A DNA stretch of 64,000 bases from Rhizodiscina lignyota. Taxonomy: Eukaryota > Ascomycota > Dothideomycetes > Aulographales > Rhizodiscinaceae. Shown one piece after another: positions 8,001 to 54,367 of this stretch. The position numbers and the translations under genes are program-made. Location: positions 1,302,001-1,366,000 of the forward strand of contig ML978128.1 of NCBI GenBank assembly GCA_010015805.1. The letters run 5' to 3'. The first letter of the stretch is position 1. Every line of letters starts with the position of its first letter. The notes under the pieces are model-generated. The model was not told the origin of the DNA. It searched no databases and was given only the letters and a program-made list of their open reading frames with translations.

Positions 8001-10064
8001 ACTGTCTCTTGCCACGAACTCGCGCCTTCGGTTGGGAAATCTTTGGACAGCATCTTGCACAAGATGTCTCAGATCATCACGCAGAGCCGAGTCCAGATGC
8101 ACGTCTTGGAGTTCTTGGCGGCGCTGTCACGCTTGCCCGAGCTGTACAAAAACTTCAGAGAGGACGATTACAAGCTAGTCTTCGGGATTTGTTTCAGGTT
8201 CTTGCAGTCATCTAGAGATGATAGGGACAAGAAGAAGACGACAAGCCCACCTCCAAACAGGACCGCATCGGGCACATTAAGGCATAGTGCAGGATCGCGC
8301 GATTTAAATGCCCTCTCAGAGAGCACTGCGAGAGGCTGGCAAACATTTACCACAAGCAGTGATCTCCCTCAATACGTGTACGCCCTTGCGCACCACGTCA
8401 TCTCGTTCTGGTTCTTCTGCCTCAAGCTGGATGATCGTCCCAAGTATGTCCCTTGGATTACGAGGAATCTTACATATACCGAGAGCACTGGCTCCAGCGA
8501 AAAGGAAATGATCGAAGAGCAAGGCTTGGTGACAATCGACATGATGCAGCGGACTGCGTACACAGATCGTGATGAGACGACGCGTGACGGCAATTTTGCA
8601 AAGCCAAGTGATGGCCAGGTGTTAAAGAAGTCGTGGATTGTTGGAACGAGTATATTGACGATTGAGACTGCGGGGCGTACTGGTATCTCTCAAGTCACCT
8701 TTCGCCGACCGGTAAGTGTGAAACCATCATCTTGTGCATACAATACTAACTTACCCAAGTCTTCAACTAGATACTCGGTCCTTCGACCTCAGCTTTCGCT
8801 ACCGCCTCGTCATCAAATACCTTTGACCACTGGCCTCAACGCGGAATACTTCTACACGCCGTCGTACATTGGCGTCCTTCCTGACGACATCTTCCAGGAA
8901 TTTTACTCACCTTACTCAATCTCTCGGCTTCCAAATACGCCCTCAGAACCCCCAATACTTCTTCCAGATGATGAGGCCACCAAACGCGCAATCAGTACTT
9001 TTGATCGCAACACCACAGTCGATAGCCACAAAGTTGGAGTGATCTATATCGCTGATGGTCAACAAGCCGAACCGGAGATTTTCGCTAATGTCACGGGCAC
9101 AGCGGACTATACATCATTCATCACCTCCCTAGGCAAACTGACGCGCCTTAAGGGTGCGACTTTCAATACCCAAGGTCTTGATCGCGAGTTCGATACGGAT
9201 GGCGAATTCACAATTGCCTGGAGAGATCGTGTGACAGAACTAGTGTTTCATGTCACGACAATGATGCCGTCGGATCTAGAACAAGACCCTGCTGGTACAG
9301 CAAAGAAGAGGCACACTGGAAACGACTATGTCAACATCATCTGGAACAATTCCGGTTCACCTTTCAAGTTCGATACTTTCCCATCGGCCTTCAACTTTGT
9401 CTACATTGTTGTCACGCCTACTTCTCACTCGTCTTTTATCGAAACACGTACGAAGCTCCCGGAAGATGACGCTGCAAGTGTAGATGTGAAATCAATCACC
9501 AGCTCCACCGCACCGACTACATCGGATGAAGGCGCGGCAAGTCTTGCTGGTCAACGCACCGGCACAAAGTCACTGCAGAATCGCTTCTATCAGGTGCAGG
9601 TGCTTTCCGCACCCGGATTCCCGAACATCTCTCCCGCATCCAGTCCGAAGATCATCAGTGGCAAAGCTCTTCCGGATTTCATCCGTTGCGTGGCACTCAA
9701 TGCGTCTGTCTTTTGTCTCGTTTGGGCGAATCGTGAAGGTGGCGAGCATATTTCATCATGGCGTAATCGGTTGCGCGAGATCAGGAGACTCAAGGAAAAG
9801 CATGCGAACCGACAGCAAACGCAATCGCAGTTAGAGTCGGGATCACGTCCACCATCTACTCCACTTTCTACTGGCGGCGAACGAAACAGTGTCATCGGAG
9901 CTGTTAGCGGATTGATTGGCATTGGCGGAGACAGGCGCCCAACACCTTCCATGCGCGACAGCGGAACAGCGTTCAAGCGCTCAAGTAACATAACCTTCAT
10001 GAGCGAGGACAACGCGAGCAGAAGCAGCTTGACGAGCCACGACGAGCGGCAAGGGAGCCAATAA
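5040..10064 (+). CDS. TSC2: Tuberin (Tsc2) homologue, RheB GTPase-activating protein
   Basis: Tsc2 is the RapGAP-type GTPase activator that switches off Rheb upstream of TORC1 and controls amino-acid uptake. The protein is about 1658 residues. The N-terminal part (from ~residue 75: LGDLLWKLRPERAISERV) matches the tuberin N-terminal helical domain. The central block near LDVGRWLELVISILKQDV is tuberin-like, and the C-terminal RapGAP domain starts near LLPDDEATKRAISTFDR. The catalytic Asn thumb is the N of HTGNDYVNI, near residue 1412. One intron was placed at 8712-8759 (48 nt, GT...AAG, branch ACTAAC). It is a multiple of three and stop-free, so the frame stays open if it is retained. The nearest in-frame upstream ATG (4959) falls inside a probable leader intron, so ATG 5040 is preferred. 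Confidence 0.9.
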   Translation: MSPSSGNGTPKTPERKTSGSILTAWRNLTGSRSKISELSSSPATTMTPTQAMFLSQDLSSNVGLPQNFTRLDSFAAIEAGAYTKLESQDTDLDHVTGGPKELGDLLWKLRPERAISERVTAARKIGDIISQYPVSNILAVWHAAKDLLDETENDASCAGFSLLLRCVRPDNLSPVERKVFFESINDIRSTNHLYSRFEVLVALTKNGRNVEALESELPPFLTFLLQASFDAVLRARRKEKKLKTDASAQEEKLFADVLRYLADVAKYNSKIVSDNEFESLFAKIIHVCKKTNSPSDVSGSLELINALITYTHVPVTGIPPCVQLLSDIYRQIESLRKPVWATLKDLFGSHLAQATVAALLDTMRGPEHGRTTYPSARGAFQILAKVIRRGHKKGIPSVSLNLFVQACKSSLVVNFPDYFEEIILFYSDALLAEDMSQQLLDDVDWTELLDLILRCGSVSKIFADTAEAPSTEQPYLLTLNRSNSHQEWERDGLADALIIFTQRLTLLFDRMDFVPRASAIDFFLHLEPLISTSTVQTIVNYYENERLLWLSNPDWLEACRFFVERLFKDPTRPSEMRVRMVRMLRQVYDTAMCVVGDVKVGKLSLLILECIPDEDDPMVLDELGGFAVEIVQSGSKDLFGSKDLFPRVLEFIRSAILKHENTTLPVIPTVVDRLSTSSASSPVLGSPSNVLTRAVVRMFLQNVGLRAWETEQFYDILLEVAGRQSSPSDARISALKLLFRLRSDANFAVFVNSVSESEDIAGLLSRTTETATSKLATTDTPQSSHTRSDRDSPLPEQRTVSGGSSQPSLVRHKSTRVLAPVSPLWMYPGPRGLPEEPCSQPSSVLFSTFILNEDTDLDDNVVLDVGRWLELVISILKQDVDWEVYSYTLVHLGAQLANGTIFAATKPQIQALRSLLCEQVKNSSFQEPPSYTSLRKSDVAVCIYYILTILISYHDNFSKAEEDELVRAFLHGIGTWESTSNWCIHALTVSCHELAPSVGKSLDSILHKMSQIITQSRVQMHVLEFLAALSRLPELYKNFREDDYKLVFGICFRFLQSSRDDRDKKKTTSPPPNRTASGTLRHSAGSRDLNALSESTARGWQTFTTSSDLPQYVYALAHHVISFWFFCLKLDDRPKYVPWITRNLTYTESTGSSEKEMIEEQGLVTIDMMQRTAYTDRDETTRDGNFAKPSDGQVLKKSWIVGTSILTIETAGRTGISQVTFRRPVSVKPSSCAYNTNLPKSSTRYSVLRPQLSLPPRHQIPLTTGLNAEYFYTPSYIGVLPDDIFQEFYSPYSISRLPNTPSEPPILLPDDEATKRAISTFDRNTTVDSHKVGVIYIADGQQAEPEIFANVTGTADYTSFITSLGKLTRLKGATFNTQGLDREFDTDGEFTIAWRDRVTELVFHVTTMMPSDLEQDPAGTAKKRHTGNDYVNIIWNNSGSPFKFDTFPSAFNFVYIVVTPTSHSSFIETRTKLPEDDAASVDVKSITSSTAPTTSDEGAASLAGQRTGTKSLQNRFYQVQVLSAPGFPNISPASSPKIISGKALPDFIRCVALNASVFCLVWANREGGEHISSWRNRLREIRRLKEKHANRQQTQSQLESGSRPPSTPLSTGGERNSVIGAVSGLIGIGGDRRPTPSMRDSGTAFKRSSNITFMSEDNASRSSLTSHDERQGSQ
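8712..8759 (+). other. 48-nt in-frame intron of TSC2
   Basis: The intron has donor GTAAGT, branch ACTAAC at 8745-8750 and acceptor CCCAAG. Removal joins ...TFRRP to SSTRYSVLRPQ. The alternative acceptor CAACTAG (59 nt) breaks the frame within 40 codons, so the shorter form is preferred. Confidence 0.6.
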
Positions 10065-41502: not shown

Positions 41503-44070
41503 TCAGTTCACGCCGTTAGTGCAAAGATCTCTTAGCGGGGAGGGTAAACTGCCAACGCCCTTTTCTGCCTCACTTCTCACTCTCGCGGCCTCCTCGCCTT
41601 TGCCACACCGCGCGAGAGTGTCGGCCAACATGCCATTCGCGGCGCACGTCCACAGCTGGCTCTTGCCTCTCTTCGCAAGGTGTAACCCTGTCCTCGCGCT
41701 TTTCTCCGCTTGGTCTCCGGCAAGGTCTTTAAAGAAGAAGGCGGTCATGAAATTCAGAGAGATGTAAAGTAGCTGGCTGTTATTAATTGCCTTGGCGTCC
41801 TTGAGAGCAAGTTGGAGATGCTGTTTCATCTTCAATATTGTACTTTCGTCGGTGCGAGGAGATATTGCGCGCATGAGGTAGAACGCAGAATGTATTGATT
41901 TATTTGCATGCTGAATGCAAAACGGTTCGAGTCGAGCGAGAAGATCTGGGAAGAGCGTGTGTCGATTATGCATCGGGGAACGGATAACGAGGAGAGTATT
42001 GAGAGCGGCAAGTATACACAAGTCTGTCTGAGCATCGTTCATCCGGTTCTTATTTGTCGGAAGCGCGAAAATCGGCGACAGGAAGATTTCCACGGCGGTA
42101 GTTGTATCGCCAATTGCCTGCGAGATGGTAGCTTCTACGTAACGTAGCCACCTGCTGATATCATCTGTAAGCTTGAAAGCCGGGTCTTTGACTTCTGTCT
42201 CAAGTCTATCAAGATGGGATCGTGCGGATGTCCAGTCTGCTCGTTGGCAAGCTATTAATGCCAACTGTAAGCGCATGAACCAAGATGACATGGCATGCCA
42301 TTCATATCTTTGTGAAGCTGTCGTGACTGTAGAATGGTCGGTGCTTGGTGACTTAAGAAGTTCTGCAGTCAATTTAGTGTCTCACCGTGAACGAGTCATT
42401 GTTCTCAAGACGCACCTTTAGCCATCCTCAATCCCTCAAGTAGGTAATTGTTAGCTTTGTCGTCTGTGATGGATTTGGATTGGATAGCTGTGATTCCACT
42501 GAGGTAGTAACCCAGCATATACAGGTCCCGCTGAGGCAGCCAATGGAACGAGAGCGAAACCTGTCCTTTGCTTTCGAAATTGAGTATGTCGCCTGTATTC
42601 CCAATCAAATTGGGGTCCACAATATGATTGAGACAAACTGTGAAGGAGCCATCCGAGTTCCATGCTAATTTGGGGTTTGCCTCGTCCATAAGGTGTTGCA
42701 TAGCATTCATCTTCATATTAGCCTGCTCAGGGTTCTGAGAGTGCTTCAGACTACATGCCAAGTCAACAATATCCAGGATAGCCCAGACTTGAGACAGCTC
42801 AGTCGACGGTAACTGCAGCTGATAACTCCGAGCTGATGCGATTGCCCGCTGCGCTTGTTCAATGCTCTCTGGACCACCACTCTTGAGATGAATCATGGCT
42901 TCGAATGCAGCAGACGTGATGAATATTTCAACGTCACCAAAGGACTCTGCGGTTGCGGAGATGCTGCGGAGATGCTGCAATGCAACCAGGCTTTCCTGAT
43001 GAGACTCCATTTGGGACGAGAGAGTTACGCGGAGAAACCGTAACGCATATGTCCAAGCAGTATGTTGGAATCTATATTTGTCAGTGCTGTCCAGATATGA
43101 ATAACTTGAAATCCTCACGTCTCGACATCCGGGATAAGCTTATCGAGGCTCTTCAAAGCTGCCTTTGGCTTTGTGCGGAATAAGACTCGGGCCTGAAGAT
43201 GTTGCATGCTGTATTTGAGGTCCAAAAGGCGATTCTAAATCCATTAGCTGGGCCAAATCGATGGTCGTCGGGGACTTGCCCTTTCGCAAAGCATTATCTG
43301 CGTCACGTGAGCGCGCGTTCGAGCGTGATTATACGTGTCTCATGTACTTACGCCTTTATTCAGCACCTCTTCCGCATCTAGATTATTATTCGTCTCTTCA
43401 AAGAGCAGTGTCGCGTATCGGAGTCTTAAGGAAGCTTCTGCACGCGGCTCTAACCTATACTTCTACTCTGCACGTTAGCGAACGCGAAAGAAGAGCGATG
43501 TACTAAGCATACCCTCAAAACCGCGTCCATACAGCGCATACCCATCGCTATGAGCTTATAGTATTCCTGGAGCCTTGTGTCCTGCTTCATCAACGCGACC
43601 ATTGGTCCCATACCTCTCGCCGTGGAGATGTACTCATCCGCGAGTGACAAGAGAAGCTGCTGAAGGTCGACAGGAGGGGACGCAGGCTTCGGGGGTTGCG
43701 GCGGCAGTTGAGGTATCACCTCAGGTTTTCTTGAAGTCGGTGTAGAAAGCATTTGGTCATGTTGATGTGCCCGGGGTTGCGGACGTGGCTGCTTCGGTTG
43801 ACGAGGTTGCTGTTGCATATGTTCGCGATAATCTGAGAGGTCTTGAAATTGGCTAAGATAATCGGGTGGGCGTTGTGGTATAATGACCATTGAGGCTGCG
43901 TTGTACTGATGAGCCGCTTGAGGCGGCGGTGGTGGAGGTATTGAATGAGGTTGCTGTTGCGCATGCGGCAGGTACGGCGGAGGGTAGTTGATGGGCCGAT
44001 TAGGCTGCCCCGAGGAGGCATACGCTCCATTAGGATGGGACCCGTAAGGGTTAAACATCTGCCAGTCCAT
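41503..44070 (-). CDS. MAU2: Mau2/Scc4 cohesin-loading factor
   Basis: Mau2 pairs with Scc2 to load cohesin onto chromatin. Six exons, 44070-43513, 43462-43352, 43297-43280, 43234-43119, 43071-42416 and 42362-41503, give 772 residues. The N-terminal ~130 residues are Pro/Gln-rich and variable. The TPR-like superhelix begins near LQQLLLSLADEYISTARGMG and includes VLRKYRLEPRAEASLRLRYA, YSMQHLQARVLFRTKPKAAL, QHTAWTYALRFLRVTLSSQ and YLLEGLRMAKELLKSPS. Exon 3 is only 18 nt (IMLCER) and is followed by a GC-AG intron with donor AGG|GCAAGT. With these two choices the frame is continuous and reproduces the family order. Confidence 0.88.
43235..43279 (-). other. GC-AG intron of MAU2 after an 18-nt exon
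   Basis: 45 nt with donor AGG|GCAAGT, branch GCTAAT and acceptor TTTAG. GCAAGT is the standard GC-AG donor. Any other join hits an in-frame stop or loses the conserved NRLLDLKYSMQHLQAR. Confidence 0.7.
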
Positions 44071-44411
44071 GATGGTGGGCCAAAAGCCCGTTCAGGGCCC
44101 GTCAAACCGAATTCCAGGGTTCGTCAAGCCTGCGTTCGTCAAATGAACAAGCCGTGAGGTTGCGTAGATAGCCGCATTCGGTGGGTGAAGAAAGCGTCTA
44201 TTGGCCAATATAAGCGCAAACGGCTCAACACGCTGTGACGCGGCCGTGTCACTGCGCTTAGGCGAGCCGAGGCACCCTGCTCGTTATCGATAGCACCTTC
44301 CAAGTGCATTTTCGAACATTGCGGCGGTAGAAATTGACCCACTTTCCAATTTCTGCACTTCACCTTGACAGATCAAGGTATCTTACTTTCACTCAGTTCT
44401 TCCAGGCTGCA
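44071..44411. promoter_or_regulatory. Divergent promoter, MAU2 and esterase gene
   Basis: 341 bp between divergent starts. No specific site was recognised. Confidence 0.5.
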
Positions 44412-49199: not shown

Positions 49200-51414
49200 T
49201 CACGCAAACCCTTCGAACTTTCTCGCGATTTCCAAAAGCTCTGCATCCATCCTACTGCCGCTCACAAAAGTCACTCCAAACGGGAGTGTCCCGTCATCCT
49301 TCTCATTTCCGGACAGCTCCTTTACCGGATATGTGCCAGCCGGCGTTGCAACAGCACACAAGTCCAAAACATTCGCAAAGTGCGTAAACTCGCCCAAGAA
49401 GCTGTTCTTCTTGATCGGGTCGGCATTGACTTGCTCAATTGTCCAATGCGTAGGTGCTGTGGGAACCATTACCACATCTACGCCGCTCGCCGCGTACGCA
49501 AAGACCTTCTCCACCTGACGTGTGTAAAGGGCTTTGGCCTGCAAGTCGCGATAAGCCTGGATAGCTGTGCTGTTTCGCGCAACAACCGCATCGAACAGCT
49601 GCACAGTGACGGGATGTAGATGTTGCCGATTCTGTTCAAGCCAGCCGTCGGGAAGTCCTGCGAGACGCTCAGAAACGAAAGTTCCGTCGTAAAGCAGCTT
49701 CCCAGCCTTGTCAAAAGGCGCCCAATCGATCGATACGAGCGTGCCACCGATGCTCTGAAGACGCTGAACAGCTTCGTCGAACATTCGTCGGTACACTGGG
49801 GTACATATCTCAAGGGCTTCAGGCGGCGGAATCCCAAACTTGAAGGCCTTAGCTTGAGGGCCTATTGCGTTGATATGTCGTTCAAAACCAATCGATGGCT
49901 TTGCGTAGCGGTCATTCTCGTCGTAGCCTTCCGTCAGTTGCCACACTAGCCTGGCATCGTCAATGTTCTTAGCAATGATGGCCATGCAATCTAGTGAGAG
50001 GCAAGCTGGCGTGACACCAACAGCAGATATGAGGCCTCTCGTGGGCTTGTATCCAACTACACCGTTGAAGAGTGCAGGTACGCGACCTGAGCCTGCGGTA
50101 TCAGTTCCGACAGAGAAAGAGCAAAGGCCCACTCCAACACTGACGCTGCTGCCAGAGGAGGAGCCGCCAGAAATGTATTCCTTGTGGAAAGCAGAGTGAG
50201 GTTGACCGTACGGGCTCCTGCAGCCTGTGAGACCCGTTGCGAATTGGTCGAGGTTGGCCTTGCCGATGAGGAGCCCACCTTCGGCTATAAGCTTCTCATA
50301 CATCGGTGCAGAAACGGTCGGGGTGAATGCCAAAGGCGGGCAGGCTGTGGTTGTCGGCAAACCGGCGACGTCTACGCTGTCCTTGACACTGAAGGGAATG
50401 CCGTAAAGCGGTGGGAGCGCAGATTTGTCTGGATACTTGGCGGCGAGTGCTTTTGCTTTCTCCACGACCACGTCTTTGCTCTCGAGATGGATCCATACGC
50501 CTTCGTGCTCCTGTCCGTAAGCTTCGATGATTTTGTATAGACCCTCAGCGACGGTGACAGGCGAAAGACCAGCTTTATATGCTTTCGATAAACCAGCAAT
50601 AGACAGATCACCGTCCCATTCAGGAGTAGTCTCGGGCGTTGATGAGGCTACCGTGCTGAGTGCATCCAGAAGAGGTTGTAATGATGCAACAAAGCTGAAA
50701 AGACCTTGTGACCAGTACAATACGTCGAGAGTTTGATATTTGAATTCGACATTATAGCCAGCAGTCGCTTCGGAGATTCCGCCTAACACAGTCAGTGATT
50801 GGGTTATTTCAACTCCATTGCGTTCTAACATCCCACGTACAGCATTCAAATCCCCGATCGTTCGCTTCCCGAATCGACGTTGCAAAGCAGCATTCTGTAG
50901 TGACACCAGCTACAATTATATGAGTGATGCCACGTGCTTTCAATTTATGCATAATTGTCGTATTCCAAAATGACCCCTTTCCGGGCTTGTCAATGACAAC
51001 CTCGCCAGGTAGTGGCTTTAATTCATCGACCAGATCATGGCCGTACTCTCCTCTCGTGAGCAGTCTTCCTAGCGGTCCTTTGTCTCCAATTACGAGCTTG
51101 TGCTGCTTATTTCCTGGAGAAGCAGCCTGCCTTACCAGTTTCGAGGATGGGCAGTCCGACATGTCTGGTTTTTGCCCTTCTCTGGTGTGGAAAATCGCCA
51201 GTCCTGCACTTCTGCAGGCATCAAGTAGCTTTCTCGTCGGGGCAATCGACTCTTGGACCGGCTCCAGATTCCCTCCCTGTATTTGCCCAAAGCCACCTGG
51301 GAGGAGAAAGTCCCTTTGCATGTCAATCACCAATAGAGCCGTGTGCTTGAGGGGAAAGGTGTATGCATATGGCTTGGCATCGATGGTGAGAGTGTCTATC
51401 TTTCCCTTACCCAT
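49200..51414 (-). CDS. Bifunctional isochorismatase-like hydrolase / allophanate-hydrolase amidase (probable biuret degradation)
   Basis: Two exons, 51414-50841 and 50782-49200, give 718 residues. Residues ~1-233 are an isochorismatase-fold cysteine hydrolase with triad Asp31 (LLVIDMQRDF), Lys143 (VIDKPGKGSF) and Cys176 (GVTTECCFAT). The blocks HTREGQKPD and LLTRGEYGHDL resemble biuret hydrolase BiuH. Residues ~248-718 are an amidase-signature domain closest to allophanate hydrolase AtzF: WIHLESKD, PLYGIPFSVKD (Lys325), GGSSSGSS (Ser399) and GTDTAGSGR (Ser423). The K-S-S spacing (74, 24) equals that of AtzF. The C-terminal domain of AtzF is missing. The intron removes the only frame change, and joins FEC|C-GISEATAGYNVEFKY. 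BiuH makes allophanate and AtzF consumes it, so one polypeptide could do both steps. ATG 51414 is preferred over the in-frame 51555. Confidence 0.82.

Positions 51415-52442: not shown

Positions 52443-54367
<1,925 letters not shown>

Follow-up and report, generated by a model that had tools for sequence, protein, structure and literature searches.

The window analysed here, a stretch of 64,000 nucleotides from the dothideomycete Rhizodiscina lignyota (taxonomy look-up; contig ML978128.1), carries at 49200..51414 on its minus strand a gene in which an isochorismatase-fold domain and an amidase domain are encoded in one reading frame. Splicing and translation place the ATG at 51414-51412 and the stop codon at 49202-49200, and give a protein of 718 amino acids. 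Exon 1 (50841..51414) encodes residues 1-191 and the first base of codon 192, which is most of the isochorismatase-fold domain; exon 2 (49200..50782) supplies the end of that domain, a linker and the entire amidase domain in a single frame. The 58-nt intron between them (50783..50840) reads GTACGT...TGTTAG and has a CTGAC branch-like motif. Removing it leaves a stop-free product and restores both the frame and the family motif around ECCGI.EATAGY. The original prediction of a single gene with two enzyme domains and a 58-nt intron is borne out by the database protein P0001, annotated from R. lignyota, which is 100% identical over 718 residues; the record's own annotation therefore made the same splice. 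The predicted splice is thus supported by homology and by annotation. Because the intron lies inside the isochorismatase domain, at codon 192, and the domain junction lies within the uninterrupted exon 2, the junction is independent of the intron. Pfam finds only two domains in the protein, Isochorismatase (E-value 3.1e-35) and Amidase (E-value 4.2e-73).

The isochorismatase-fold domain, delimited by PF00857, Protein Data Bank (PDB) matches, profiles and trees, spans residues 9-236 (50649..51390, intron counted in the span; minus strand, as are all features of the gene). Its catalytic triad comprises Asp31 (51324-51322), Lys143 (50988-50986) and Cys176 (50889-50887). A census of alignment columns identified Ser216-Gln217 (50706..50711) as the counterpart of a Gln-Gly pair in the triuret hydrolase TrtA (Gln202) and the biuret hydrolase BiuH (Gln215). 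The short linker, residues 237-249 (50610..50648), is set by the domain limits and coincides with a variable stretch in the alignment. The allophanate-hydrolase amidase domain follows at residues 250-716 (49209..50609), as delimited by PF01425, NF006043, PDB matches and a tree, with the triad Lys325 (50384-50382), Ser399 (50162-50160) and Ser423 (50090-50088). Its substrate-anchor motif, Tyr556...Phe560...Arg564 (49665..49691), reads YDGTFVSER here versus YxGPWVAER in allophanate hydrolases.

The fusion is not a peculiarity of this genome. A whole-protein homologue search, with scoring limited to the 7998 candidates that had most words in common with the query, yielded 7756 matches; all counts of fusions given here refer to the best 120 of these, P0001 included. 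Both domains are present in 120/120, at lengths of 680-825 residues. A chance or mis-spliced join can be ruled out, given the identical annotated protein, the fusion of all 120 best-listed matches and the position of the junction inside exon 2. Named sources of the fusions include many Dothideomycetes, black yeasts (Exophiala and Cladophialophora among them), lichen-forming fungi, Ilyonectria, Mariannaea and a single basidiomycete, Hygrophoropsis aurantiaca. The basidiomycete fusion, P0107 from H. aurantiaca, is nested among ascomycete fusions in the trees of both halves, a position that reflects either inter-phylum transfer or contamination. The databases label the fusions 'allophanate hydrolase' or 'glutamyl-tRNA amidotransferase subunit A', and either label misses half of the enzyme. 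The catalytic residues assigned in the original prediction hold across the family. Cys176 is present in 120/120 fusions and Asp31 and Lys143 in 118/120 each, with gaps in the other two; Lys325, Ser399 and Ser423 are each found in 120/120, in columns that align with the amidase triad of AtzF.

By its sequence, the second half is the amidase domain of an allophanate hydrolase in which the Trp of the substrate motif has given way to Phe across the family. It scores 465.5 bits with NF006043 (cut-off 487), matching model positions 7-445 of 600, and 436.8 bits with a second allophanate-hydrolase model (cut-off 511.05), where the match ends at 410 of 563. Scores under these NCBIfam cut-offs are expected, since the domain is a shortened form. 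The best PDB matches are AtzF (4CP8) and the Granulibacter allophanate hydrolase GbAH (4GYR), with the yeast enzyme at about 246 bits. A 53-row tree nests the second half within the allophanate-hydrolase clade (100/100) and leaves seven amidases, AtzE-like or of other kinds, outside it; its nearest neighbours, with weak support (93/89), are two rhizobial AtzF proteins. The allophanate-hydrolase placement in the original prediction is thus supported. An AtzE-type second half can be ruled out: two AtzE models give 139 and 133 bits, under their own cut-offs and versus 465 bits for the allophanate-hydrolase model, and the 1-carboxybiuret hydrolase AtzE, although it shares the amidase-signature fold, belongs to a separate clade (100/100) and lacks the Tyr/Arg motif. 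An AlphaFold model of the protein (mean predicted local distance difference test score 78.2; predicted template modelling score 0.84) also has allophanate hydrolases as its first PDB matches.

With AtzF and GbAH the fungal domain shares a full-length amidase domain, the Lys-Ser-Ser triad and the Tyr and Arg of the substrate motif (Tyr556 in 119/120 fusions, Arg564 in 120/120). In the work on the GbAH structure, this Tyr and Arg are reported to anchor the substrate; Tyr299 and Arg307 are reportedly the subject of Lin and St Maurice (2013). The fungal domain differs from both enzymes in having an N-terminal partner fused to it, in lacking a C-terminal domain and in two motif columns, in which Trp303 is replaced by Phe and Pro302 by Thr or Ser. 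The segment that is mostly GPWVAER in other allophanate hydrolases has become GTFVSER in the Rhizodiscina fusion. The C-terminal domain of full-length AtzF is missing here, and a long C-terminal tail is likewise lacking in 11/30 fetched prokaryotic allophanate hydrolases. Truncation of AtzF to its first 467 residues is described as leaving the amidase activity in place (PMC3944691), and what the amidase step produces is described as inherently unstable (PMC6219798). In yeast urea amidolyase, however, catalysis of the second step is ascribed to the C domain (PMC5770610), and an enzyme that lacks it could also be slower or carry out another reaction.

A fungal fusion that includes an allophanate-hydrolase amidase domain is familiar from the urea amidolyase DUR1,2 (Kluyveromyces lactis, 4ISS and 5I8I). 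There, however, the partner is a biotin-dependent urea carboxylase at the other end of the protein, and the amidase half is not sister to ours in the tree. The Rhizodiscina fusion, with its two Pfam domains only, lacks the biotin carboxylase and carboxyltransferase domains of DUR1,2.

Placement of the first half relied on prokaryotic relatives. Single-half homologue searches (best 120 listed each) were apparently filled by fragments of the same fungal fusions, and standalone relatives were therefore drawn from a contig scan and from plasmids: 80 genome loci (best 80 of 573 relatives) and five plasmid loci (30 of 1355 records listed). From these loci, 128 isochorismatase-fold sequences were extracted, of which 82 are TrtA-type (Phe35 and Asn41), 39 are BiuH-type (Tyr35 and Tyr41) and 7 are neither. 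The TrtA states taken as discriminating are Phe35, Asn41, Ala134, Glu160, Tyr187 and Ile205; positions 35 and 41 are among those named as discriminating TrtA from BiuH in PMC7948467, from which the identities of the TrtA and BiuH structure chains were also taken.

Judged by profiles and trees, the first half groups on the TrtA side, away from the BiuH type, although an approximately unbiased (AU) test against a grouping with BiuH gives only p about 0.07. Its best PDB match is TrtA (6XIX, 206 bits), ahead of BiuH from Rhodococcus (6XJM, 176 bits) and from Rhizobium (6AZO, 165 bits). A profile built from the 82 TrtA-type sequences outscores one built from the 39 BiuH-type sequences in 120/120 fusions, by 48-80 bits (median 65); as a control, the TrtA and two BiuH structure sequences score as expected with these profiles. 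The trees place the fusions with TrtA. The branch separating TrtA and the fusions from the rest has support of 99/93 in a 67-row tree with one mis-spliced row, 98/91 in a 66-row tree and 100/99 in a 61-row tree whose bootstrap had not settled. The fusion stem branch is long, at 1.15 and 1.7 changes per column in the 67- and 61-row trees. With the BiuH model NF050097 the first half scores 210.2 bits, under the cut-off of 370. Two TrtA sequences (255.9 and 257 bits) also fall below this cut-off and match no TrtA model in NCBIfam, so triuret hydrolases may go unlabelled in annotation. A RutB or ureidoacrylate-type first half can be ruled out, with 92.8 bits for the RutB model versus 210.2 for the BiuH model and 96 bits for the RutB structure versus 206 for TrtA. 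Of the phylogenetic expectations in the original prediction, then, the one for the second half is upheld, whereas the first half groups on the TrtA side rather than with BiuH, and its scores do not fit RutB.

The first active site combines TrtA states with altered positions. Compared with TrtA of Herbaspirillum sp. BH-1 (6XIX, 6XJE; PMC7948467), the fungal domain has the same fold and Asp-Lys-Cys triad, the nearest position in the tree and the TrtA states Lys132, Glu72, Phe29, Phe35, Glu160 and Tyr187, the last three in 120/120, 120/120 and 119/120 fusions; it differs in its fused amidase and is 49% identical. BiuH (6AZO, 6AZQ, 6XJM) is 42% identical and shares the fold, the triad, an equivalent of its Lys145 and, in most fusions, Ser134. 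None of the BiuH states Tyr35, Tyr41, Asp160, Thr187, Val205 and Gln215 (TrtA numbering except Gln215), however, occurs in the 120 fusions. The fungal pocket has a fixed signature of its own: Gly48, Cys175-Cys176 and Trp215-Ser216-Gln/Glu217-Gly-Leu219. The Val161 and Ile205 columns of TrtA hold Cys and Leu, respectively, in all 120 fusions. Nor is the first half a standard TrtA, since the Gln that holds the far end of triuret or biuret is replaced by Ser in 119/120 fusions. One divergent copy, P0117 from Neofusicoccum ribis, has its first half outside the other 15 fusions of the 67-row tree, with Asp-Gly in the key column and Val in the Glu72 column, and its second half nested among other fusions.

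In bacteria, triuret is converted by TrtA to carboxybiuret, which yields biuret, then by BiuH to allophanate and by AtzF to ammonia, and operons with all three of trtA, biuH and atzF exist (PMC7948467). Among the 82 fetched TrtA-type loci, many of them cut by contig ends, an allophanate hydrolase is encoded at 27, a BiuH-type enzyme at 38, both at 13 and at least one at 52. One locus (L095) combines a BiuH-type gene, a TrtA-type gene, a cupin gene and atzF; the small ChrR-like cupin gene (8650-8982), between the TrtA-type gene and atzF, could encode a carboxybiuret decarboxylase. AtzE-like genes follow some bacterial TrtA-type genes, as at L020, where one scoring 695 bits to AtzE lies 203 bp downstream. 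On a plasmid of Natronorubrum daqingense (L094 5791-8034), a BiuH-type gene directly precedes an in-frame short atzF (459 residues), an archaeal near-fusion that tblastn reads as a single piece because the two adjoin in the same frame. It resembles the fungal arrangement but consists of two genes and has a BiuH-type first partner. Two Rhizobium plasmids (L097 5265-8443 and L098 5064-8191) carry operons that encode an isochorismatase-fold enzyme of a third type, with Cys-Cys and with Phe in the key Gln column, a second isochorismatase-fold protein that by alignment lacks the triad Asp, Lys and Cys, and an allophanate hydrolase that is a weak sister of the fungal second half.

Elsewhere in the R. 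lignyota genome, a gene with two introns (C9, L099 3233-4251) encodes a BiuH-type protein of 248 residues. It scores 310.6 bits with the BiuH-type profile versus 257.2 with the TrtA-type profile, and 301.5 with the BiuH model (cut-off 370), and has the BiuH states Tyr35, Tyr41, Asp160 and Val205 but Ala187. Genes for urease alpha and, at two loci, uricase are also present. A urea-carboxylase-like multi-exon gene stands beside a PxpA-like gene (C25, L109 2153-9464); the urea carboxylase model is the best match in 5/5 carboxylase pieces scanned, which cover part of the exons and total about 841 bits versus a whole-protein cut-off of 1303.85. This locus, which also has an open frame resembling a solute:sodium symporter by eye and without an NCBIfam match, is possibly an alternative source of allophanate or an oxoprolinase-type cluster. 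No second allophanate hydrolase was found among 31 genome matches, the next amidase after the fusion gene scoring 93 bits, whereas yeast urea amidolyase reaches about 246 bits against the second half. A search for cyanuric acid hydrolase gave no match in this genome and none in the control genomes either, and so does not show that the enzyme is missing; a stretch of pADP-1 considered as a control has no such gene in its annotation. Clustering of pathway genes around the fusion gene can be ruled out, as none of ten open frames scanned fits a ureide pathway; the same-strand neighbours include a cohesin loading factor in pieces (41506-44091) and a carboxylesterase (52590-53501).

These genes change the picture of a self-contained route from biuret to ammonia that had been drawn from the locus alone. 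The separate BiuH-like gene, the urease and the urea-carboxylase-like gene leave that description unsupported, and the premise that the fungus works without a biotin carboxylase is made unsafe by the C25 gene. A triazine nitrogen source is likewise without support, there being no cyanuric acid hydrolase match in a search that lacked a working positive control. Nor does the reaction require the proposed channelling: tests on the urea amidolyase fusion led to an argument against it, allophanate being found to move by diffusion (PMC5770610).

We tentatively propose, with confidence a little short of even, that the fusion scavenges nitrogen at two sites, the first of which would release ammonia from a triuret-like ureide and the second, thereafter, from allophanate; its substrates, their order and the benefit of fusion are deduced from sequence comparison. 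Triuret or a close ureide would be hydrolysed to carboxybiuret and ammonia at Cys176, and the carboxybiuret would decay to biuret. A separate BiuH-like protein encoded elsewhere in the genome would convert biuret to allophanate, which would be hydrolysed to ammonia and CO2 at Ser423; spontaneous decay of the carboxylated amidase product would substitute for the missing C-terminal domain. The route would be that of bacterial trtA-biuH-atzF with trtA and atzF fused and biuH apart.

Several observations weigh against this proposal. In the AU test, a grouping of the fusions with BiuH is not rejected at 0.05 (p 0.072 in the 66-row tree and 0.069 in the 61-row tree), and support varies for the exact place of the fusions, within TrtA or beside it (97/92 with 67 rows, 83/89 with 61 rows). 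The Gln202 column, which is Gln in 82/82 TrtA-type and 39/39 BiuH-type prokaryotic sequences (121/121), is Ser in 119/120 fusions and Asp in one. The Asn41 column of TrtA is Gly in 113/120, and position 134, variable among TrtA-type rows too, is Ser, the BiuH consensus, in 87/120, Ala in 26 and Thr in 6. With these three positions changed, the substrate may be neither triuret nor biuret. At the second site, residue 560 is Phe in 119/120 fusions versus Trp in 32/33 non-fused allophanate hydrolases. The BiuH-like protein at C9 has Glu in the key Gln column, and its proposed middle step is doubtful because Gln-to-Glu exchange cut the efficiency of BiuH about 1300-fold. The genes nearby (carboxylesterase, cohesin loader, rhodopsin-like) lend the pathway no support, nitrogen-type GATA sites are not clearly enriched upstream (4 in 800 bp, a number matched by 8.7% of window stretches), and neither partner gene was seen at 30/82 TrtA loci, many of which are cut by contig ends.

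The key Gln column also bears on the reading given in the original prediction, that of a biuret-hydrolase first half in a protein that converts biuret to ammonia on its own. In BiuH this Gln comes from a neighbouring subunit and binds the far amide of the substrate; its replacement by Ala or Glu lowered the catalytic efficiency (kcat/KM) on biuret about 400- and 1300-fold, respectively, and Gln215Ala raised the Michaelis constant (KM) more than 25-fold (PMC5806882). In TrtA the Gln is placed 2.7 Å further out and has been proposed to set triuret versus biuret specificity (PMC7948467). In the fungal enzyme, by the alignment, the residue contact by which the far end of a substrate is recognised has been lost or moved, and an ordinary biuret hydrolase is therefore unlikely, with triuret plausible but not certain. 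The AlphaFold model is that of a monomer and hence silent on an inter-subunit contact at Ser216-Gln217. That fold, triad and much of the pocket are common to BiuH, that BiuH is the second-best matched characterised enzyme, that the AU test leaves the BiuH grouping unrejected, and that allophanate, on which the second half likely acts, comes directly from biuret, all favour biuret hydrolysis. We nevertheless regard it as decidedly unlikely: the TrtA profile is preferred in every fusion, the BiuH states at positions 35, 41, 160, 187 and 205 are absent, Ser occupies the biuret-contacting column, and the genome has a separate BiuH-type gene.

Somewhat improbable, in our estimate, is a third specificity for the first half, in which another ureide or amide would be the substrate and allophanate or a relative the product or co-metabolite. 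The fixed fungal pocket signature on a long stem branch and the family-wide Trp-to-Phe change in the second site would fit such a divergence, and relatives within the isochorismatase-like fold take guanylurea (PMC9800807). There is no candidate substrate, however, and residue 217, one past the key column (Gln in 107, Glu in 12 and Gly in 1 of 120 fusions), could replace the lost contact. A more speculative variant, which we think unlikely, casts the fusions as a third class, specific to fungi, within the triuret/biuret hydrolase group, joined to a re-shaped allophanate hydrolase: 1-carboxybiuret, or another carboxylated ureide related to it, would be made at the first site, and the second, widened by the Trp-to-Phe change, would take this unstable product directly, before loss of CO2, and then finish allophanate. 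If so, triuret or a comparable ureide from oxidised uric acid would be mineralised by a single polypeptide. It is very unlikely, in our estimate, that the second half works chiefly for a stand-alone carboxylase of urea or guanidine type, with the activity of the first half a sideline. The best match of all five scanned C25 pieces to the urea carboxylase model and the lack of another allophanate hydrolase among the genome matches would agree with that role, but the gene adjoins a PxpA-like gene, which suggests oxoproline-type chemistry, its partial score is well under the cut-off, and the genome has a urease, so urea does not need a carboxylase or fusion route.

Both enzyme types are already known, and the fusion is a widespread variant with altered sites, which give it a real chance of a new substrate. 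No published description of the natural fusion was found in the literature searched. Robinson (2018) is said to report biuret hydrolases in some fungi. In the text of PMC7948467 that was searched, trtA-like genes in some fungi are mentioned, and the words 'fusion' and 'fused' are absent; a synthetic biuret-hydrolase/allophanate-hydrolase construct for plants exists (PMC13155557). For triuret itself, the authors of the TrtA paper propose roles in eukaryotes, and sources associated with plants via uric acid oxidation (PMC7948467). Many filamentous and lichen-forming fungi thus have a fused, conserved enzyme of apparent TrtA lineage in which both active sites have changed in fixed ways. Activity on triuret would make the mineralisation of ureides a trait common among fungi; without such activity, the fusion would point to an unrecognised nitrogen metabolite of fungi.

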